Part shown: positions 3,925 to 57,575 of the stretch, piece after piece
How the letters are laid out: every line of letters starts with the position of its first letter
Numbering within the stretch: the stretch's first letter is position 1
Source of the DNA: Undaria pinnatifida
Lineage: Eukaryota; Sar; Phaeophyceae; Laminariales; Alariaceae
Direction of reading: 5' to 3'
Assembly (NCBI GenBank): GCA_012845835.1
Contig: JABAKD010000028.1
Span: 12,462,717 to 12,526,716, forward strand
Length of the DNA: 64,000 nucleotides
The notes under the pieces: model-generated
Told to the model about the DNA's origin: nothing
What the model saw: only the letters and a program-made list of their open reading frames with translations
Database searches by the model: none
Program-made: the position numbers and the translations under genes

Positions 3925-4050
3925 TACAGTCCCAAAAAAAACTCACCCATATACGTAGTATATTACAAGTACCAACAACGCAGCTTGCAAAGATGAGTAT
4001 TGTCCTGAAATTCGTCGAACTCACGGCTGACGTCCTTGAAATATTTTCTA
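3925..4050 (+). repeat. dispersed family B module, copy B1
   Basis: This copy carries the family B signature: AAAACTCACCCATA, then ACAACGCAGCTTGCAAAG, then a peptide-like stretch starting at the ATG near 3993 (MSIVLKFVELTADVLEI when translated). The same module recurs in both orientations across the window, so it belongs to a mobile or amplified element rather than a host gene. Confidence 0.8.
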
Positions 4051-17449: not shown

Positions 17450-18119
17450 GGGAGAGTGTGTGTGTGTGTGTGTTCTTCACATTAAACCGTTCTTCTACTC
17501 GTCGACATCCAGCACACCCAGTGTCCGTACTGATTCTTCACCCTAGAAAGATCGGCTCTGTGGTCACAAGCTACTTTTTTTCTTTCCCCTTCTTATCCTT
17601 ATGAAGGGAGTCTTGCATGGTGGGTAGGTGACGAGCCTCTTTTATTTGGCCCTCCCAGCCTTCCTTCTTCTACTTGTTTCTTTTTTCCGGGGTATTTTTT
17701 TTTTCCCTTCCTTTCCCCCTTGCATGTCCATTTTGGCTCATGCTCGGGGTATGTTTCTATCTCCCGTGCTTTGGCTCCCCTTTTTATTTATTTATTTATT
17801 TATTTTGTCTTGGTTTCTTTCGTTGTTTCTCTCTTTTACAAGGTATTTTGGTTTAATGAGAAGAACACAAAGGGGGGAGGGGGGGAAACAGGAGGAGTAG
17901 AAGGAAAGCCGTCCAAGGGAATGGGGGCAGGGGGGGCAACAGGAGGAATAGAAGGGAGACCGCGGTGGACGAAGGCAGGAAGGAGATGGCAGGCAGGGTA
18001 GCAAGGTACCAGGCCGACTAGTAGGTACATAGCACTTTTCGTCTTTCTCTGGGGTATTTTTTTCCCCTTTGTTCCCTCCTTGCGTGTCCAGGTTTTTGGC
18101 TCGTGTTCGGATTATCTTA
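17450..18119. repeat. partial copies of a dispersed repeat with T-rich low-complexity DNA
   Basis: The segment 17455-17575 (GT microsatellite, CACATTAAACCGTTCTTCTA, TCGTCGACATCCAGC) is a copy of 21507-21625. Two T-rich units with GGGGTATTTTTTT and CTTGC(A/G)TGTCCA recur at about 17690 and 18050. The long Phe-rich open frames on this strand come from T-runs and are not genes. Confidence 0.6.
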
Positions 18120-18660
18120 TTTTGGTTTTACTTTACTTTATTTTATTTCATTTTATTATTATTTTTTTTTTTTTTCCGAGCTTTGGCTCTCCTTTGCGGT
18201 TGGGTTGTTTCTTCGATTTCCCCTTCATTTTGTTTGTTTCATTTTTTGTTTTATTTTTATCTTTGTTTTTATTTGTTTTTTTTTTTTTTTTTTTTTTTTT
18301 GTTTATTTCGTATTTCTCTCTTCCAATGTATTTCTGTTGCTGATGTATGTATGTTGTGCCTGTCGTACCCAGTACTAGGGCATGACATTGCGTTGTCGAA
18401 TGCATTACGATGCATTATCTCTGTGTCGTGGCTTGTGACCACAGAGCTGATCTTTCTAGGGTGAAGAATCAGTACGGACACTGGGTGTGCTGGATGTCGA
18501 CGAGTAGAAGAACGGTTTAATGTGAAGAACACACACACACACACACACGACACAGAGATAATGCATCGTAATGCATTCGACAACGCAATTTCATGCCCTA
18601 GTACTGGGTACGACAGGCACAACATACATACGTCAGCAACAGAAATACATTGGAAGAGAG
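18120..18660. repeat. fold-back repeat: ~105-bp inverted arms around a 120-bp spacer
   Basis: Positions 18120-18538 are the reverse complement of 21507-21950. The arm at 18320-18425 (CTCTTCCAATGTATTTCTG to TCTCTGTGTCG) is repeated in reverse at 18548-18655. The spacer holds CACAGAGCTGATC, GTCGACGAGTAGAAGAACGG and an AC microsatellite. The whole could fold into a hairpin. Confidence 0.7.
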
Positions 18661-19117
18661 AGTACAAGGAGGAGACGAGACATAGTAGTATTAATAGTAG
18701 TAGTCCAGAGTCCAGACATCTATCTCCAACGTCCGAGCCCGTGGATTGTAATGTCGTTGCAGAGGTATTCATATGCAGTCGTGATTGGCTCGGCATATAG
18801 TTGGTACAAAATACCGCCGCACTTCGTATGTCGCACGACAACACCCACTTGGGTTGACGGTCCTCGGTGATCTGACCTAACATAACGGGAGCACGCGCAA
18901 AGAAAAATCGAGATATTTTCGTACACGTCACTCGGCGTTTGCACAGCTCTGCCCGATTTCGGGAAGACCAACTCGGAAAGTGCGCCGGGGAACACCGTAT
19001 TGTGATGGCAACATGGTGTGTTTGGTGGCGTACGAAACCACGCTTTCCCCTCAGCGGTCAAACGACTACAGGATATACATACTGTAATAAACTGGTGCAT
19101 TCCACAGCCGTCAGATT
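18661..19117. other. no gene seen
   Basis: Overlapping short frames on both strands, none with a recognisable domain. Confidence 0.4.
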
Positions 19118-19305
19118 TTGTCATCCTCTAAAACGCGTTTAATTGTTTCTGCGCAGATTGATTTCGCGATGACGCCCGTTGACCCTGGTACAAGCTAGTC
19201 CCAAGGGGGGTCGCCGACGTATACCCAGCAGTTATACTCGCGATCGGAGTATCACACACAACTTGCAAATATGAGTTTCGACGAAATCTTCGATCTCACA
19301 GCTGT
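19118..19305 (+). repeat. dispersed composite repeat with family A module, copy A1
   Basis: The unit begins CAGATTTTGTCATCC, passes GTTGACCCTGGTAC and GTCGCCGACGTATA, and ends with the family A module: GATCGGAGTATCACACAC then TTGCAAATATGAGTTTCGAC and GATCTCACAGCTG. The same order of blocks occurs at 26478-27030 and 28640-28945. Confidence 0.7.
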
Positions 19306-19429
19306 ACGCAGTGTATAGCTGTACGCCTTTCAATTTTTATGATATACTCTTAGGTCCCCGGGTAGCCTACCCGCTTGGTATAGCCCACCAACGGGTACAT
19401 ATTTCCTTTTCCCGAATACCCAGCCCTCT

Positions 19430-21506: not shown

Positions 21507-21950
21507 CGTGTGTGTGTGTGTGTTCTTCACATTAAACCGTTCTTCTACTCGTCGACATCCAGCACACCCAGTGTCCGTACTGATTCTTCACCCTAGAAAG
21601 ATCAGCTCTGTGGTCACAAGCTACGACACAGAGATAATGCATCGTAATGCATTCGACAACGCAATGTCATGCCCTAGTACTGGGTACGACAGGCACAACA
21701 TACATACGTCAGCAACAGAAATACATTGGAAGAGAGAAATACGAAATAAACAAAAACAAAAACAAAAACAAAAAACAAAAACAAAATAAGAAAACAAATA
21801 AAAACAAAGATAAAAATAAAACAAAAAATGAAACAAACAAAATGAAGGGGAAATCGAAGAAACAACCCAACCGGAAAGGAGAGCCAAAGCTCGGAAAAGA
21901 AACATAATAAAATGAAATAAAATAAAGTAAAGTAAAACCAAAATAAGATA
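21507..21950 (+). repeat. dispersed repeat, reference copy of the 17.4-18.6 kb family
   Basis: Starting at a GT microsatellite, this copy holds CACATTAAACCGTTCTTCTA, ATAATGCATCGTAATGCATT, CAGCAACAGAAATACATTGG and an A-rich 3' third (AAACAAAAACAAA). The orderly layout and the A-rich end suggest a retroposed sequence, but no pol III boxes were found. Confidence 0.55.
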
Positions 21951-22095: not shown

Positions 22096-22388
22096 GAACG
22101 ATCCTACCTGATTTTGCCAACCGCCTGCTCGGATCGCGCGGCAGTGAGAGTGTTGAGAGCACGTTGATTTTTTGGCGCATGTGGAGTACAAATCCGTGCG
22201 TGATATCACATGTATGTACAGATAGATGTGCAGAGTAAATTGGCCCTCTCGCGAGAAACCTGAAATCCGGCTCTAGCAGTAGGTTACATACTCTGGCGGA
22301 GCGAGAAGGAGTCTAGCTTTCGTACGTCTTCCCATATAAACGGCGAGCGCCTGCTACGAAGGCTATACTTATAATACCTGGTACACCA

Positions 22389-22517
22389 CAGCTGCTGTGA
22401 GATCGAAGACTCCGTCGCAAACTTATATTTGCAAGCTGTGTGCTACTCCGATCGCACGTAAGTATCACACACAGCTTGCAAAGATGAGTTTCGACAACAT
22501 ATTCGATCTCACAGCTG
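22389..22517. repeat. palindrome of two family A arms, copy A2 (inside-out)
   Basis: The element reads CAGCTGCTGTGAGATCGAA at its left edge and TTCGATCTCACAGCTG at its right edge, with CCGATCGCACG in the centre. Arms are about 58 bases each. Compared with copy A4, the CAGCTG ends are outside rather than inside. Confidence 0.75.
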
Positions 22518-23047
22518 GAGTGTATTTTTATTCTTATAATATTACTGTGTGTGTCCTCATTAAGGATATAGGTCCGCGACTCCCCTTCGAACTACAGCCA
22601 TTGTTGCTTGTACCGGGTATCAGCTATATGCACGTTCGGATTTTTTCGAAATGGTACGCTATACCAGGTATTAATTAAGGTGTTTTGTTACGAGAGGGCT
22701 AATGCTGTGTATGTGCTACCGCTGTAGATTGGATACTCGTCCTCTTGCCCAGCGGGTCGGTTTGCTTTGTTTTACCGATGCGGCACGACTTACACCCGTC
22801 TTGGGAAGGAAGGGCATCCCGGTGAAAGCTTTCCCTCCTTCTCCGGGTGAGTCATAAACGAAGACCCGTGTGCCTTTCCTCCTTCTTTGGGAGGGTTTTA
22901 CCCTCCCATTGGGCAATTTTTTTTTTTCAAAACCTCGATCGCGAGATGGAGACAACCCACGATCACCCCTCTTCTTTCCGGACACGGTCAGATGAGTGTA
23001 GGTGACAGCGCTGAAACGTTCATCTCGAGCCATGCCCTAGGGCGTGA
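22518..23047. other. no gene assigned
   Basis: A minus-strand open frame of 105 codons (22716-23033) is rich in Lys/Arg/Gly and contains an A-run. There is no domain, and a repeat origin is possible. Confidence 0.3.
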
Positions 23048-24702: not shown

Positions 24703-24990
24703 AAAAATATTTCAAGGACGTCAGCCGTGAGTTCGACGAATTTCAGGTCAATATTCATCTTTTCGAGCTTCGTTGTTGGTACTTGTAATATACCATATGG
24801 GTGAGTTTTTATCAGGAGGGGTCCTATTTTTCGCGAGTTCGACCCCCCCCCTCCCCGGGGCGTTTTTTTTTGTTCAGGTCAATACTCGTCTTTGCGAGCT
24901 GCGTTGGTGGCACATGTAATATACTATATGGGTGAGTTTTTGTCAGGAGGGGTCCTATTTTCTGCGAGTTCGACCCCCCCCCCTCCCCGG
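24703..24990 (-). repeat. two tandem, partly truncated family B modules, copies B2 and B3
   Basis: In reverse orientation, B2 carries TATTTCAAGGACGTCAGCCG, TTCGACGAATTTCAGGTCAA and GGGTGAGTTTTTATCAGG, then AGGGGTCCTATTTT and a C-run. The segment from TTCAGGTCAATACTCG onward is repeated as B3 at 24876-24990, about 160 bases downstream. Confidence 0.75.
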
Positions 24991-26477: not shown

Positions 26478-27030
26478 GATTTTGTCCCCCTCAAAAACGG
26501 GTTTTATAGTTTCCGCACACAGACTAACATCACCCTGTTGACCCTGGTACGAGCTACACTGCTGTTGTAGTTCCAAGGGAAGTCGCCGACCTATATCAGC
26601 CATTGCAGCCGGTCGCCCCGGTGGCGTATCAGGTTATCCTCGACCCTGGTATAGGTCAGTTTCGCGAGTTCGAGCCCCCCCGAGTGCATTTTCGTATACA
26701 TTCGTGGGGGGATATTTTCTTGTGCACAAATTGACTTTCGGAAAGCGCGAGAGCGTGAGTTAGCAAACACCACTCGATGAAAAATCGACGAGCAGTGGGA
26801 TTGCTGAACCCTATGCGCGATGAAATTGAAGGCAAGAACCGGGGGGAGAAGAGACGACACATGTGACCACGGCTTGTCCAGAAGCTGGTAAGTAGAAGTG
26901 TGCAAAAAAAAAAAAAATCCTTAATGAGGACGCGCACAACCCGTAATACGCGCGATCGAAGTATCACACACAGTTTGAAAAGATGAGTTTCGACAAAATC
27001 TTCAATCTGACAGCTGGAGTGTATTTTTTT
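26478..27030 (+). repeat. composite repeat with family A module A3, split by a SINE1
   Basis: The blocks CAGATTTTGTCCCCC, GTTGACCCTGGTACGAG, GTCGCCGACCTATATC, then after the SINE CCTTAATGAGGAC, CGCGCGATCGAAGTATC and TGAGTTTCGACAAAATC follow the same order as in the uninterrupted copy at 28640-28945. Confidence 0.75.
26609..26917 (+). mobile_element. SINE1, copy E (full length, nested, poly(A) tail)
   Basis: Head GGTCGCCCCGGTGGCGTATC, B-box-like GAGTTCGAGCCCC, shared body, and a 14-base A-run at 26904-26917. It lies between CCGACCTATATC and TCCTTAATGAGG, which are adjacent at about 28714-28734, so the pre-insertion sequence is visible in a paralogue. Confidence 0.85.
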
Positions 27031-27689
27031 TTATAATACCCCGTACCAAACATCCCGCTACCCTACATTGGAAACCCCGATATTCTCCCGTTCTTTCTGC
27101 TGTTCTATCTTTTCTACCCGTTACTCCCAACACTAGGTTGCCCCAACGACAACCTTCCTCTTTTGGATGATCTAAAAAAATGTGCGGGCCACCTCCTAAA
27201 ACGTACCGTATTTTATATGTTTGGTAGTTTACCTGGTGTGTTTGGGGTGATGAAAACCCGATGAAGTCTACTCTGGCACCCAGAGGCTCAAAATGTGCTT
27301 CCGTCCCGCTCCAATTTTCTCATGTTTCTCGTAGTTCGTAATTTTTCATGTAAACCCTAAATTTCGATTCACGAATTTTCTAGTGTTTGATATTTTTACC
27401 CCCATGTACATTTGGATGTTTCTGGTTGCTAACAATTAATCTCTGCCCTAAATCATTCTCGATTTTTACGAATTCTCTAGTTTGTCGTTTTTAGTTTTAT
27501 CATTTACCAGGTGCCAGGTACCAGAGGGTATTACTTCCCTCCGTATCTACCCCATATTAACCCAGCAATATGCCTAGAAATGACTAACCCAAGGGTTCTA
27601 GGGGGTGCTCTTACCCAGGACTAAAGCCCACACGTCCACACAGAAAACGAAATGCAAAATGGTATATTTGAGTAGTAAAGTATAAATAC
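27031..27689. other. no gene seen
   Basis: AT-rich DNA with short frames only. A second copy of the GATGATCT(G/A)AA(G/A)AAAATGTGCGG word lies at 27168. Confidence 0.45.
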
Positions 27690-28545
27690 CAACAGTTACC
27701 ATTAAAGTGGACAAAAAATAGGACCCCTCCCGATAAAAACTCACCCATATGGTATATTACGAGTACCAACAACGCAGCTCGCAAAGATGAGTATTGACCT
27801 GAAATTCGTCGAACTCACGGCTGACGTCCTTGAAATACCTAGTATTTTTTATATAATCTCTGGTTGAAGATTTTTTCAACATTGTTTGATACGCGGTATT
27901 TATGTATGTACCGGCTGTCAAATAAACTTGCCATTATAGTGGACAAAGAATAAGACACCTCCCAATAAAAACTCACTCATATACTCCGTAGTATAGTACG
28001 AGTACCATCAACGCAGCTTGCAAAGATGAGTATTGACCTGAAATTCGTCAAACTCACGGCTGACGTCCTTGAAATACCTGGTATTTTTTATATAATCCCT
28101 GGTTGAAGATTTTTTCAACATTGTTTGATACGCGGTATTTATGTATGTACCGGCTGTCAAATACACTTACCATTATAGTGGACAAAGCATAAGACACCTC
28201 CCAATAAAAACTCACTCATATACTCCGTAGTATAGTACGAGTACCATCAACGCAGCTTGCAAAGATGAGTATTGACCTGAAATTCGTCAAACTCACGGCT
28301 GACGTCCTTGAAATACCTGGTATTTTTTATATAATCCCTGGTTGAAGATTTTTTCAACATTGTTTGATACGCGGTATTTATGTATGTACCGGCTGTCAAA
28401 TACACTTACCATTATAGTGGACAAAGCATAAGACACCTCCCAATAAAAACTCACTCATATAGTATATTACGAGTACCAACAACGCAGCGTGCAAAGATGA
28501 GTATTGACCTGAAATTCGTCGAACTCACGGCTGACGTCCTTGAAA
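27690..28545 (+). repeat. tandem array of family B modules, period about 239 bp
   Basis: The word AAAGATGAGTATTGACCTG occurs at 27783, 28022, 28261 and 28493, giving spacings of 239, 239 and 232 bases. The middle units are almost identical. Each unit holds ATAGTGGACAAAG, AAAAACTCACTCATA, the peptide-like module, a GTTGAAGATTTTTTCAAC stem-loop and ACGCGGTATTTATGTATG. The near identity indicates recent amplification. Confidence 0.85.
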
Positions 28546-28639
28546 ATTAGTTATGAAATAACTGTTTCCTTGACACGAGTAATAAATACCAGGTAACAGA
28601 GTAGTAAAAGTTTTTTTCAAAATTGTTTGATACGTGGTA

Positions 28640-28945
28640 TTATATATTATACAGACTGACTAAAATCATCCTGTTGACCCTGATAGCTACACTGTAGCTG
28701 TAAGGGGAGTCGCCGACCTATATCCTTAATGAGGACACACAACTCGTAATGCGCGCGATCGGAGTATCACACACAGCTTGCAAAGATGAGTTTCGACGAA
28801 ATCTTCGATCTCACAGCTGGAGTGTATTTTAATTTTTATAATATTATATAGAATGAAAAATATGCTTTGGCTGTGAGATCGACCAAAAACGTTTTTTTGA
28901 TCAAAACTCAGCTTTGCAAGCTGCGTGTGATACTTGGATCGCGCG
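28640..28945 (+). repeat. uninterrupted composite repeat with hairpin copy A4
   Basis: After the CTGTTGACCCTGATAGC and GTCGCCGACCTATATCC blocks, positions 28751-28945 form an inverted repeat. The left arm is GCGCGCGATCGGAGTATC to GATCTCACAGCTG; the right arm is GGCTGTGAGATCGACC to TTGGATCGCGCG. Arms are about 70 bases around an AT-rich loop. Confidence 0.8.
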
Positions 28946-48716: not shown

Positions 48717-49394
48717 CCCTTTCGAGACGGAGCACCGTTCCTACTCCTACTGGAGACACCTCCAACAAGCAGCGGGGTGGCAATTGCGTTTAATCTATTT
48801 ATCGATGGCCGGTGGCAGCGGCCGTCTCAGCGTTGTTCTGCAATGAGCTCACACGTGCTACGGCGGCAAAGCTGCATCCTTTTTCTCAGGGCTTTTCGCG
48901 GGTCATAACCCGAGCCGCCGATCATGCCAGGAGGTTCTCAAAACCTCGTGGGTCCACTGGAGTCGGGTCAGGAGGTGTTGGAAACCTCACGGGACGGGTC
49001 AGATCGGGTCAGGAGGTTTCTTAAATGTCGTAAGTCGTGACAGGTTGCCTTGCTTTTCTTTTCGATGCGATGCTCGTCACTCGAGGACCTCTGTACCCTA
49101 TAACAATACCCAATAGTACCCCATAGTAATGCCCTAAAACCCTATAACAATATAGTACCCATCTGAGGCAAAAGCTTGTTTTTGCAGTGAACCGAAAGCC
49201 GTGCCTTTGTGACGGATGAGAAATCCATCCTATGGCCTACAGTGGGTACAACAAAATAAACCGCCTACTATACATATGATAGAGCAGTATAGTGGAAACC
49301 ACAGTAATAAATTTATAAAATAGATGTGATGTTTGATCTAGCTCAAAATTCCGCACCTAAAGTATAAATACCAACACTTACCATTATATATAGT
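48717..49394. other. 5' flank of the polyQ/RS gene; dispersed GGGTCAGGAGG repeat
   Basis: Positions 48890-49022 (GCGGGTCATAACCCG, GGGTCAGGAGGTGTTGGAAA, GGGTCAGGAGGTTTCTTA) match 50800-50992 in inverted orientation. A short series of CCTATAACAATA/CCCAATAGTACC words lies at 49096-49152. No promoter element is convincing. Confidence 0.5.
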
Positions 49395-49535
49395 GGACCA
49401 AAAATAGGACCCCTCCCAATGAAAACTCACCCTTACCTGGTATAGTATATTATAAGTACCAACAACGCAGCTTGCAAATATGAGTATTGACCTGAAATTT
49501 GTCGAACTCACGGCTGACGTCCTTGAAATATTTTT
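49395..49535 (+). repeat. family B module, copy B8
   Basis: ATAGTGGACCAAAAATAGGA, then CTCCCAATGAAAACTCACCC, ACAACGCAGCTTGCAAAT, and the ATG near 49480 with the MSIDLKFVELTADVLEI reading. Confidence 0.8.
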
Positions 49536-50493
49536 TATAAAATATTTTTTCATACACTGCAAATAAATCAAGAATGACGAGATTCCGACGGTTTCGGGTC
49601 AAGAAACCTCGTCGCGTCGTCATATATATTCGGAAAAATATTCTTTTTTCCCCCCAAAAAAGGTACTGCTGTACCTCTAATGCATCACGCGTCAGCTACC
49701 GTGTACCTGGTATACAACACACAAGATAATACGCCGCCAGCGACGAACTTCAGACCCGAATTTTATCCAAAACTAGCGGGGATACTGCATTGATTGGGAG
49801 GATCTCGTCGATGCCGTTTCCATCGACGCGTCGAGCCATCCGACGCTTGGGATGCAGCAGATTCTGAGGATCTTCTGCGCTTCTAACATGAGGAGCTAGC
49901 TCAATATCAACATCAACATCACCCACCCGAAACGTGACTTCGAAGGCATTCGTTCGCGCAACTCACCGCCAACATTTCTATGCGCTATTCCTAAAAGCAA
50001 AGATGCTCGTAATTTTATCGTGCTCGTAACCGATACCAAGTTCCACGCTTGAGGAGTTTCAGCCGCTCACAAACCTTTAGTCTAACAACTGCAACCCCTA
50101 CCGCATAGCACCGCACTATGGAGGGATCACTCCGTCTCTCGGCGCTTGCACCCTCCCCGTCGACACGGGCTGCGACCCCCCTGCACCTCACCGAAGAACT
50201 CCTCAAGCGCCACAAAGTATCTCGACGACGGTGCATACACACATATATATCGCGAAAGAAAAAAACACAAAGTTGGGGCCTGACTGCAAATTTACAGAGG
50301 AAGAGTCCTCCCACGGTACCTAGGGGTTGCGCTCTTTTTGGGCCACATGGTGGTGCTTACAAGTCCTTCTGAGAACTGGTTAATTGATTTCGAGCTCGCT
50401 CGAGCGAGGAACTGCTGGTTGTTCTGACACCTTTCTGACAGCTTTCTGGCACCTTTCTGACACCTTTTTCGGGCACATTTGTTTTAGGGCTAG
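49536..50493. other. no gene seen
   Basis: Short frames only. Near 50425-50470 the words CTTTCTGACA and CTTTCTGGCACC form a small tandem repeat. Confidence 0.4.
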
Positions 50494-50992: not shown

Positions 50993-51262
50993 AAGGGAGA
51001 GACGTGTCCCCACCTACCGCAGTTGCTTTCCGCCGTTACACAGACAAAATCACCTATTTTTTAAAAGTTCGTCCAAGAGTGTTTTATACGGCATGTATCC
51101 ACCTCTCTCTGCCTGATGGATATCCAGCGAGGTCATACACAACTACAACAGCAGTAGTGGAGCATCTGACAGTGCTACTTTCAGGGAGGGGCTGTTTTGT
51201 TTTGCCAACTTCGATGGCGATTTCCCTAATCTACTCATGGAAAAATGAAAACTACGCTTCAT

Positions 51263-51335
51263 TCCGCTGTGAGATCGAAATTTGAATCAAAACTCATCCA
51301 TCTTTTTGCGAGCTGCGTGTGATAGTTCGATCTCC
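51263..51335 (-). repeat. family A arm, copy A5
   Basis: GCTGTGAGATCGAAATTTG, AAAACTCATC, TTGCGAGCTGCGTGTGATAG and TTCGATCTCC match the right arm of copy A4. The opposite arm is missing. Confidence 0.65.
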
Positions 51336-52071
51336 TATTGTAGCACATTTTTGTTTTTTTTTATTGCAGTCAACCCCCCCCCCCCCCCGCGCCGATATCA
51401 CGCTGCGTTGTGAACGGGCGTGGCAGCTCGTACGTAGTTATGCGCAGTTCTGAAGGTGGCTGATACGGCTTACATACCGCGTACGTATTTACGCGTAGTT
51501 CTGACAATGGTTGGTGTGTGAGCAGCATGGTGACCGGATACAGCAGCGGCAGAAAGTAGGAGATACCTGGTGGTAACTTAACATCGCCGTCTCTTGGTCG
51601 TGCCCACCACTACATAGTGCAAGGCAACCACCAGTGAAACAGCAAAAACCAAGTACCAGCTGCAAGGAAGCCAGGCTGAGATAAATGGACGCAGCTTCAA
51701 CATAAATCCCGATGACGAGTTTATGTTGAAGTTGCCGATAGTGCAAATCACACCCTTTCCTAACTCGGAAAAACCAGTTGGCCGGGTCAGTCAGCATCCC
51801 TGTTTCGTACTTCAATCGTCGAAAAACTTTTGTTGCAACCCACCTCGCGAATACCAGCTTCAAGCATGCTGGCGAGTCTGACGTTTGTGAAGCTCGACAT
51901 GTCCACCTGTGACCGCTCGCGCGCCGGTTTTCCAGATGTCTGCGGGATGGATCGTGTCGTAAGACATGTAGGACGGTCATCTACAAGTATTTTAGAAAAA
52001 AGGATGCGTGCTACGAGAGAGGTGCACCAATGCACCACTTTTTTTTCTGGCAGGTTCCTCAATTTGGGAGC
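51336..52071. other. no gene assigned
   Basis: A C run lies at 51376-51389. A minus-strand frame of 163 codons (51489-51980) lacks a domain and splice support. Confidence 0.35.
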
Positions 52072-52535: not shown

Positions 52536-52696
52536 TTAAGACCTCTCTTAAGGCAAAAACTGATTTGGAGAAAAATAAAACCGTTACCAGATGAAAACTC
52601 CCATGGCCTAGGTACACAACGAGAATCACGCAAAAAAAAATTGCCCGTTTCCGACGATTTTGGGCTAAGGACCCCGGCATTCAGAAAAAAATTCCG

Positions 52697-52962
52697 CCAA
52701 AAAACGGTATTCCTCTATTGTAGCACGCGTCAAAAAATTATTTATTTTCATGACGAGAAAAAAATCAGCCAAAAAACGGTATACCTCTATTGTAGCACGC
52801 GTCAAAAAATTATTTATTTTCATGACGAGAAAAAAATCAGCCAAAAAACGGTATACCTCTATTGTAGCACGCGTCAAAAAATTATTTATTTTCATGACGA
52901 GAAAAAAATCAGCCAAAAAACGGTATACCTCTATTGTAGCACGCGTCAAAAAATTATTTTAC
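52697..52962 (+). repeat. 72-bp tandem array, about 3.5 near-identical units
   Basis: CCTCTATTGTAGCACGCGTC occurs at 52712, 52784, 52856 and 52928, exactly 72 bases apart. As 72 is a multiple of three, open frames run through the array on both strands (RKKSAKKRYTSIVARVKKLF on plus). A diverged unit follows at 53033-53075. No gene is implied. Confidence 0.9.
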
Positions 52963-53160
52963 AAAAAATATTTCAAGGACGTCAGCCGTGAGTTATTATT
53001 ATTTAAATTTTCACAACGAGAAAACATTTCCGCCAAAAAACGGTATACCTCCATCGTAGCGCGCGTCAAATAATTATTTTATACCTAATTTTCAAGGACG
53101 TCAGCCGTGAGTTTGACGAATTTCAGGTCAATACTCATCTTTGCAAGCTGCGTTGTTAAT
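52963..53160 (-). repeat. two family B ends around a diverged 72-bp unit, copies B9 and B10
   Basis: AAATATTTCAAGGACGTCAG lies at about 52967 and TTTTCAAGGACGTCAGCCG at about 53090. The second continues through TTTCAGGTCAATACTCATC and TTGCAAGCTGCGTTG. The array and the family B end seem to have been duplicated together. Confidence 0.7.
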
Positions 53161-53665: not shown

Positions 53666-55587
53666 CGAGGAACAAGCTCTTGTAGCATAGAGCACTGTGC
53701 TGCATGACGCGTAGGATGCACAGGAACGAACCAAGCACGATGTCAGCGCATACAGCACATACATACCTAGTCTGAACAATGCGGTTTGACTCTTTTCGTT
53801 TTCGCTCGCAACTCGCAATGGCCATGGCACTGCTGCTGTGACCGTCTACACGCTACTACGCAGAACACGACACAGCACACAGAAAACAACAGCTCCACGC
53901 TCAGGCTCTACTGCTGCATGCGTTTGCCACATATGGCGAACGATTAGCACGCTGTTGTTGTTGTTGCTGATCTCCGACGTATCAGTATGTACGTAGCTCC
54001 CTGGTACATTGGATCTGCGAGTACATAGCAGGTGCGGTGCAATTACATGACACGAAAATCCGAAAGTTCGGCCTCAATGGGTTCACCGAAGTCTTCGCAA
54101 ACTCAGCCCCCCCGCTGATCCTGTCAACACGCTAGTAGCCGGGGGGGCGTCACTGACCTATGAGGTCCTGCACGAGCATCCGCGGCCGACGTATTGCGTA
54201 GTGTGCAACGCCGAGTGTCGACTGATTACCCTACCGAACTCACAGCGGGCGGACGTATTGCTTAAACATACAAACACACACGAGGAGCCAAAATAACATC
54301 AACGACTCGTCCTGACACGAGACCGTGCTCAAGCCAAACCTGGAATAGACCACCACTCCCAGATACTTGCTATCTATGTACCAGAGACCCATTCAAGCCC
54401 CCCCCCGCTGGGTCGTATACCAATAGATACATATATCAGCAGCAGCAGCAGCAGCAGCTAGCGCCGTGGGGCTGAAAAAAACCAGAGACGGAACCAATGT
54501 CTCCAATCTCGCACCTCTCGCGTGTAGGAGTGTGATGCACCAGCACCACCAGCAGACTTCATCTTGCCTGCTGTTCTTGCTGTCGTGCGCAAGAATGGGT
54601 GCCACGGCTAAAACTTGCGAAGAAGACGTACGCGTCGAAGAAGTCAAAACCTGGTACATCAAGCTCAGCAGGTGCTACTACTGCGGTTGCTCGATGGGGG
54701 GCAGGTAGATGGAGTCCGTGCTCGCTTGGATTGCTTCACGACTCAAGAGCTTGGTACGTGTGCTAGCTTAAAGAAAGTATGTGACACCCTCGTGCTCGTC
54801 ATGTGCTTCCACGCAGTTCAATCACACCGTCACCGACAGTAGACTTGACGCACACTCATACTTACGAGTACTTACGCGTACTCGTATTATTGTACGTCGT
54901 ACGAGTGCTGCTGGCTGAGCGAGGTCGAGAGTCGGTAGGCGACGTCAACGAACACTTTCTTGACATTTTGACCCACACGACGGGCGAGGCGAACAGCCCA
55001 CGCGTACTCGCACTTTAGTCTAAACTGGTAAATATCGTTCGTTAACGGTTTCAAAAAGGGAAAAAAAACTCACTGCTGCGGGCTGTTCGTAATTTCGCAC
55101 CATGAGCCATCACGCCATAGAATAGCATATCACGTCACAACCTATCATCATCATGATTCAGCCATCACACATCACACGTAGCACAGCCTTCAACCGTCGA
55201 TATATTAGGTGGTCGTAATAATACACCATACATACCGCGACACGAGGAAAAACATAGAGATATGATAGGCGACATGTCGGCACAAAAATAACAACACATA
55301 ATAATAAATCTCTGCGCGCGTGCGATTGGGCGTTTCCCGCTGATACCGAACGCCGCGGAATAGTAACATTAATATTTCGCTCGGCTGCTGGCATGCACAG
55401 CAGCAGCAGTATTATTTCGTTTCAAAGAAAGAGTGAACTTCCGACTCGATTGTGAGGGTTTTAAGGAAGCGCTTATAATAATTCAGAAAACAAAACATAG
55501 TAATACATGATAAGTCAGCCAAAGCGTGCCACCCCCCCATCAATACGCCGCCACAAGGTTTCCCAAGCACCCGCGACATCGGAGGGT
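53666..55587. other. no gene seen
   Basis: Holds a (CAG)7-type microsatellite at 54438-54458 and scattered short frames. Nothing has domain or splice support. Confidence 0.4.
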
Positions 55588-57319: not shown

Positions 57320-57575
57320 AGCGCATAGCAATAATGGTCGGGCTCTGCGCGAATAACTGTCTTCGAAGTTGTGTATCTCGGGTGAGATATTGAGCTCCGG
57401 ATAAATGTTGGGAGCTCATAAAACTTCTGCGCTGCACCGGTACAGTGTAGCGCGGGATGACTCCCGATAAATGGATGGTATTTTACAAGTACCAACAAAC
57501 AACGAACCTTGCAAAGATGAGTATCGGCTCTAACTTCGTCGAACTCACAGGTGACGTCTTTAAAATTATATGTAG
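57320..57575 (+). repeat. TRIM-interior-like repeat followed by family B module B11
   Basis: 57320-57475 resembles 50600-50720 (CTTCGAAGTTG, GGGTGAGATATTGAGC, GCTGCACCGGTACAG, GGGATGACTC). Then ACAAGTACCAACAAAC, CCTTGCAAAGATGAGTATCG and CTTCGTCGAACTCACAGG form a diverged family B copy whose reading is MSIGSNFVELTGDVFKI. Confidence 0.6.

Follow-up and report, generated by a model that had tools for sequence, protein, structure and literature searches.

The 64,000-nt stretch of the Undaria pinnatifida genome analysed here (the window) contains two repeat families, A and B, which carry one short module in common and, when translated, give similar peptides that differ by an in-frame codon. The question raised by this locus is whether the module is maintained as a peptide, as an RNA structure, or as part of the end of a mobile element.

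Copies of the Shared Module

The 16-mer common to both families (GCTTGCAAAGATGAGT) was found 16 times in the window when up to three mismatches were allowed, against 0.49 matches expected from shuffles, and 21,406 times as an exact sequence in the whole genome (10,756 + 10,650; 511,146,479 bp in 68 contigs), whereas its reversed control gave 0 matches; thus, the two families with a common module described in the original prediction are real. Exact 18-mers for A, B, and a third group, C, were present 16,013, 2411, and 1452 times in the whole genome, respectively, with 0 matches for all the reversed controls. A covariance model built on 30 copies and run on a search space of 229,730 bases gave 51 matches at E ≤ 1, 44 of them at E ≤ 1e-4, and these 44 copies were sorted by best score into 17 A, 14 B, and 13 C. 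The module that the three groups have in common, of ~75–95 nt, looks like the 3′-terminal part of non-autonomous, 5′-truncated retroelements, and a common ancestor of A and B, as originally proposed, is supported.

In the window, 17 copies of the module passed E ≤ 1e-4 with the covariance model, and a further, broken copy lies at 24832. The sites listed originally were all correct, but the list was incomplete and missed the C-type copy at 54191. The copies and arrays of the window were as follows:

28647..28841, + strand: A-family copy, probably 5′-truncated, with the tail module at 28766-28836 (covariance model, 80.5 bits)
28851..28931, − strand: inverted A-type tail adjoining the A copy at 28647..28841 (covariance model)
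27692..28545, + strand: tandem array of a 239-bp unit with a B-type tail per unit, at 27767, 28006, 28245, and 28477 (TRF, 3.6 copies; covariance model)
49284..49541, both limits approximate, + strand: B-family copy with a longer 5′ part (from GCAGTATAGTGG) and the B tail at 49460-49533
3973..4046, + strand: B-type tail (covariance model)
24705..24778, − strand: B-type tail (covariance model), with a second, broken B copy at 24832-24897
53086..53158, − strand: B-type tail adjoining a 72-bp tandem repeat (covariance model)
57497..57570, + strand: diverged B-type tail (alignment, stem pairs by eye)
19251..19323, + strand: A-type tail with a 4-nt insertion (covariance model)
22375..22446, − strand: A-type tail, inverted with respect to the 22464 tail as a nested pair (covariance model)
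22464..22534, + strand: A-type tail (covariance model)
26917..27033, + strand: A-type copy starting right where a tRNA-type SINE ends in its poly(A) (BLAST, covariance model)
51241..51323, − strand: diverged A-type tail, 34.7 bits (covariance model)
54191..54265, + strand: C-type tail, its loop one base longer than in the C reference and its frame shifted (covariance model)

The 5′ limit of the B copy at 49284 was set by its likeness to the B copy of locus L004, and no target duplication (TSD) was seen around it. The array at 27692-28545 arose locally and recently by tandem duplication of 239 bp that include a B tail, and it is no feature of the family, since its units 2 and 3 differ at only one base and by 7 nt in length. 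A separate 72-bp tandem repeat (52683-53113; 3.8 copies, 98% match) is interspersed with fragments of B tails at 52970-52994 and 53090-53155.

Thirteen tails at E ≤ 1e-4 were detected in 130 kb, corresponding to 13 ten-kb stretches chosen beforehand (L009–L015 and L018–L023), and this density of ~100 tails per Mb leads to an estimate of ~51,000 copies in the whole genome, with a Poisson range of ~27,000–87,000 and with stretches from only eight contigs. In the published genome of U. pinnatifida, of 511.28 Mb (511,280,173 bp), the repeat annotation contains 36.1% of “unknown” repeats in 785,477 pieces and only 326 SINE copies (PMC7058681). More than one third of this genome is “unknown” repeat, and the tail module would allow tens of thousands of such copies to be classed as LINE-dependent. 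No description of this tail or of kelp SINEs was found in the titles and abstract beginnings of the open-licence literature, in which two brown-algal genome papers mention SINEs (PMC6418280, PMC7318753).

Outside the alga, 51 phage records showed short, weak matches, none of them covering 80% of the query and, among the matches listed, with at most 16% covered, and a 22-letter pattern was not matched exactly in any viral contig. The same pattern had two matches among bacterial and archaeal genomes (L024 and L025). The first one appears to be a chance match, with no extension past the 22 letters. The second one is a C-type tail (L025:3680-3751, 81 bits) at the end of a 3.8-kb contig of a Robiginitomaculum sp. 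MAG, which is probably algal DNA binned with the bacterium.

Element Anatomy and Probable Insertion Traces

Upstream of the 16-mer, a stretch like GCGCGAYCGGAGTATCAC was found in A and in many C copies, and all three groups have in common CGCAGCTTGCAAAGATGAGT or near variants, followed by a variable loop and by TCGAxCTCACAGCTG. According to the alignments, the module is followed by an A/T-rich 3′ end (...TTTTTATAATA in A and ...TTTTTTATAAAATA in B) and then by unrelated flanks; this 3′ end is common to the copies, while the 5′ limits differ from copy to copy, so that a shared 3′ end with variable 5′ truncation is observed. The A copy at 26917, for example, starts only ~45 nt 5′ of the module, and the copy in L007 terminates in (AAC)n.

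The bodies attached to the tail are long and C-rich in A, of ~250 bp and SINE-like in B, and more diverse in C. A copies in L004, L007, and L008 extend upstream into a C-rich, internally repeated mosaic, and upstream of two long A copies a common mosaic of ~2.2–3.0 kb was found to be devoid of any RT-like ORF; this mosaic may consist of more than one element. As for B, its pol III boxes are weak: of two copies, only that of L004 has an exact A box, with a B box with 2 mismatches, and the window copy passes neither threshold. When a tRNA-like head of B was sought, Rfam gave no match at E ≤ 10 over the L004 B copy, and ARAGORN found 0 tRNA genes in the window.

Insertion of the LINE type leaves copies that are truncated on the 5′ side, flanked by TSD-like repeats, and terminated by A/T-rich sequence or short repeats. 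Direct repeats flank a 251-nt B copy inserted within A-like sequence in L004 (AATATTGTATGT), a 182-nt B copy in L006 (AATACTAAATA), and a 275-nt A copy in L003 (AAACACCAGC), and the element lengths between flanking repeats were 170, 182, 251, and 275 nt. In the window, the A copy at 28647..28841 is bracketed by two AT-rich 9-bp sequences (TATTATATA; 28638-28646 and 28842-28850) that are candidate direct repeats. They were spotted by eye and then checked, and they are not part of the count below.

The TSD analysis was carried out on 37 copies, leaving out seven that belong to the array or to the inverted pairs of the window, by searching for exact repeats between 26 nt at the tail end and 400 nt upstream, with the 3′ flanks shuffled among copies as a control. 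Repeats of at least 8 nt were found in 9 of the 37 copies versus a shuffle mean of 2.7 (a value reached in 1 of 1000 shuffles), with the other 28 lacking them. At 9 nt or more, the excess was weak (3/37 versus 0.85, reached in 44 of 1000), and the values were 3/37 versus 0.29 (reached in 2 of 1000) at 10 nt or more and 2/37 versus 0.14 (reached in 9 of 1000) at 11 nt or more. A looser version with all 44 copies gave 9 with repeats of at least 9 nt versus 2.6 in shuffles (maximum 8), some of these 9 belonging to the array. TSDs of variable length are thus observed for the set of copies, not for each of them.

Predicted Hairpin of the Module

The references of A, B, and C fold into one nested hairpin, in which CAGCT/AGCTG, the outer stem, encloses the hairpin TGAGT-A-TCGA...TCGA-ACTCA. 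The A/T-rich end comes after this fold, and the loop has 7, 10, or 11 nt depending on the copy. Changed cells were about four times more frequent in the loop (62/374) than in the 3′ arms (27/612), and by family the proportions were 24/119 versus 6/221 in A and 10/125 versus 8/210 in B; a Fisher p for this contrast is not to be taken literally, since the copies are related. Most C copies were first found with a pattern that covers part of the arms, whereas BLAST searches with a single A and a single B copy had already returned 13 of the 17 A and 13 of the 14 B copies, four of the other five being in loci added later.

The folding energy of the A core was no better than that of its shuffles. Compared with shuffles, the core gave z values of −0.3 (A), −1.5 (B), and −2.4 (C), with similar values on the other strand, so the energy does not fix the strand, as both strands of B and C fold below shuffles. 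When the whole module was folded for eight single copies, seven were not clearly better than shuffles and only that of L007 was clearly below (z −1.86). In the 30-copy alignment, 85.1% of the cells pair versus 27–38% for slid partners, but column shuffles reached 85.3%, and no covariation beyond composition was found; RNAalifold alone recovered only 4 pairs. The constraint as RNA structure suggested originally agrees, then, with the loop/arm rates and with the one fold of A, B, and C, and finds no backing in covariation.

The diverged copy at 57497 has changes in five stem pairs, of which, according to the alignment inspected by eye, four still pair (G-C to C-G, U-G to C-G, A-U to G-U, and U-G to U-A), whereas the fifth, an outer one, no longer does.

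A hammerhead ribozyme (GATGA...GAA) was rejected as a candidate, as no GAAA was seen by eye after the second arm and no Rfam family reached its gathering threshold in the window. Rfam searches around a B copy at E ≤ 10 gave three weak, unrelated matches.

A Candidate Retroelement Tail and Its Possible Partner

Our favoured reading, to which we assign a probability of roughly three in four, is that several families of non-autonomous retroelements that depend on LINEs carry the module as their conserved 3′-terminal RNA tail. It is based on the copy number, the common 3′ end and ragged 5′ ends, the excess of flanking repeats, the loop/arm rates, and the frame-breaking indels described below. The transcripts of these elements would have the module at their 3′ end, where its RNA would fold into the hairpin in vivo and be bound by a LINE-encoded reverse transcriptase, with target-primed reverse transcription presumably starting from the 3′ end. 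Priming from the tail would in turn give copies that agree in their 3′ ends, differ in their ragged 5′ ends, and lie between short duplications.

The likeliest mechanism is recognition of the 3′ tail by a LINE, which is known from published SINE/LINE pairs and has been proposed for RTEX-N1 of Ectocarpus. RTEX-N1_Ec32 is described as the most abundant single family of Ectocarpus, with more than 6000 copies of ~600 bp, a 3′ end in common with autonomous RTE-X LINEs, and a 5′ part of unclear origin (PMC12477816). By its published description, it resembles our elements in being very abundant, short, and non-autonomous (PMC12477816); in contrast, at least three bodies carry one tail here, and no autonomous LINE with the tail was found downstream of the RT-bearing copies examined. 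Fifty-eight SINEs are reported to have 3′-end sequence in common with a partner LINE (PMC3747384), and in the LINEs ZfL2 of zebrafish and UnaL2 of eel, mutation or deletion of the 3′ stem-loops is reported to impair retrotransposition, with experimental evidence of the zebrafish LINE protein binding its own stem-loop (PMC4176376). The elements described here are like these stringent pairs in that a 3′ sequence with a stem-loop, in our case a predicted one, is common to several elements (PMC4176376, PMC3747384), and unlike them in that no LINE with this tail was found downstream of the RT-bearing copies examined.

The search for the partner with the RVT_1 profile gave 3526 RT candidates in the genome, 150 of which were scored; over 30 of these 150 lie within open frames that are 1228–1286 aa long. 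Neither the module nor a covariance model match was present in the 1.1–1.2 kb downstream of three RT-bearing copies, one of a first family (L026) and two that, by eye, belong to another (L027 and L028), so no partner LINE with this tail was found downstream of the three copies, of two families, out of 150 scored RT matches. The 3′ ends of these L026 and L027/L028 copies contain (CA)n and (AAC)n, and those of L026 and L027 were set at the point where their likeness to other copies stops. In addition, a motif scan of 24 sequences, judged by eye, showed no convincing LINE RT.

The lack of the module in the two RT-bearing LINE families examined is one reason to consider that the tail could be a retroelement 3′ end for some other reverse transcriptase, such as that of a Penelope-like element, or a plain sequence tag instead of a stem-loop; covariation equal to that of column shuffles points in the same direction, and so does the table of Ectocarpus elements, in which PLE and DIRS appear besides LINEs (PMC12477816). 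However, loop sites are far more variable than arm sites, and the TSD-like repeats, the 5′ truncation, and the A/T-rich or short-repeat ends are the traces of a LINE-type insertion, so we regard this explanation as unlikely. According to a broader proposal, many unrelated bodies (~5 × 10^4 copies) have acquired one and the same ~95-nt RNA tail, which a reverse transcriptase outside the two RT families examined mobilises, so that an unrecognised tail-recognition system would drive a repeat group that ranks among the most abundant in the genome; this seems to us distinctly improbable. The elements would be an abundant but already known kind of genomic parasite, and the module provides a defined RNA with which to seek the enzyme.

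Inverted Pairs of Tails

Three pairs of tails of the same type lie on opposite strands within 600 bp of each other (28766+/28851−, 22375−/22464+, and 3025−/3565+ in L022), an arrangement that MITEs or foldback DNA transposons would show if the module were their terminal inverted repeat. In the first of them, the abutting A tails form a 50-nt inverted repeat (28752-28801/28896-28945) with arms 86% complementary. Such pairs, however, include only 6 of the 44 copies, and no inverted pair was detected in 19200-19400 or 51200-51450, with only A/T-rich ones in 26900-27100 and 49350-49650. Moreover, the two close pairs of the window are in opposite arrangements, tail-to-tail and head-to-head, as expected of nested insertions, and the tails at 28766 and 28851 look as though one had landed in the A/T end of the other. 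Terminal inverted repeats with a target duplication of fixed length were not found, the copies having instead a common 3′ end, varying 5′ limits, and candidate duplications that differ in length and sequence, which makes a DNA transposon very unlikely.

Rfam searches with the inverted A pair gave 13 matches, all below the cut-offs, the best one to a miRNA family (41.5 of 140 bits), which we attribute to the palindrome. The inverted A-tail pairs at 28752-28945 and 22375-22534 could form long hairpins in read-through RNA and be a source of small RNAs.

The Apparent Peptide

The coordinates and translations given originally proved correct: the frame reads MSFDEIFDLTAGVYF at 28776, MSIDLKFVELTADVLEI at 27777 and 49470, and MSIGSNFVELTGDVFKI at 57507. 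Regarding the rest of the array, the copies at 28016 and 28255 read MSIDLKFVKLTADVLEI, and that at 28487, like the one at 53133, ends in ...VLEN-stop. The in-frame codon difference holds between A and B, where it amounts to three bases and comes from the loop length (7 nt in A versus 10 nt in B), and does not extend to further copies, in which loops of 11 nt occur too.

A reading common to A and B could reflect coding constraint, either on a short peptide (MSxDxxF-LTA-V) or on a longer protein of which this would be the end, so substitutions by codon position and indels were analysed in the 17 A, 14 B, and 13 C copies. Substitutions at positions 1/2/3 were 15/11/27 in A, 10/10/9 in B, and 22/14/22 in C, and the observed versus expected synonymous fractions were 0.377 versus 0.217, 0.241 versus 0.240, and 0.224 versus 0.226, respectively. 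The even spread that the original prediction had named as evidence against a peptide was thus found in B and C and not in A, the only family with a third-position excess (27 of 53 substitutions), in which a single third-position site of the loop accounts for 8 changes. Pooled by codon position, the loop changed in 26/144, 9/115, and 27/115 cells, with second positions changing least, as a peptide would have it, and the 3′ arm in 12/219, 6/190, and 9/203.

Against this, 18 of 20 indels break the frame and only 2 are multiples of three, 8 of the 13 C copies are out of the common frame because of a one-base difference in length, and the common open frame continues past the element into unrelated flanks. 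The original view that this is not an ordinary gene is supported as well. In the copy at 57510, which had been taken as a case of peptide conservation, 6 of 17 residues are replaced with respect to B, while four of the five stem pairs touched still pair.

Gene callers did predict ORFs over the module, and a protein search gave 12 short predicted proteins at E ≤ 1, all of them unnamed. In P0002–P0011, as judged by eye, the A segment is common and the likeness stops near the end of the element, with the remainder differing, and no Pfam family above the cut-off was detected in the window ORF and five of the 12 proteins. Neither change that depends on codon position across the families nor conservation of the frame, both expected of a protein-coding family, was observed, and we consider coding constraint, as proposed originally, extremely improbable. 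What looks like a peptide is most plausibly a side effect of the conserved tail, and RNA structure, as modelled, fits the data better than a peptide, a result close to the “only a structural terminal repeat” that had been offered as a fallback. Short ORFs predicted over such tails need not be genes.

Other Repeats Related to LINEs

Four segments of the window (17839-18542, 21510-21950, 17460-17574, and 18547-18665) are 94–98% identical to the presumed 3′ UTR of the L026 LINE (contig C19, with a frame of 1250 aa), and they appear to be recent truncated or rearranged LINE ends. At contig C22:21636853-21637632, an RVT_1 match lies within an open frame of 6858 aa.

In addition, a tRNA-type SINE of ~285 bp (CGCCCCGGTGGCGTATCAGG...GAGTTCGAATCC, a body, and a poly(A) in most copies) has heads in the window at 26626 (+), 20540 (+), 14701 (−), and 10538 (−), and BLAST matches were found in the window and at seven other loci (including L006, L013, L019, and L020), five of them among the 13 stretches chosen beforehand. 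Its 3′ part (CCTGTGACCACGG-CTTG) is close to the 3′ end of the L027/L028 LINE (CCTGTGACCACGGACTTG), a similarity that suggests a possible SINE/LINE pair.
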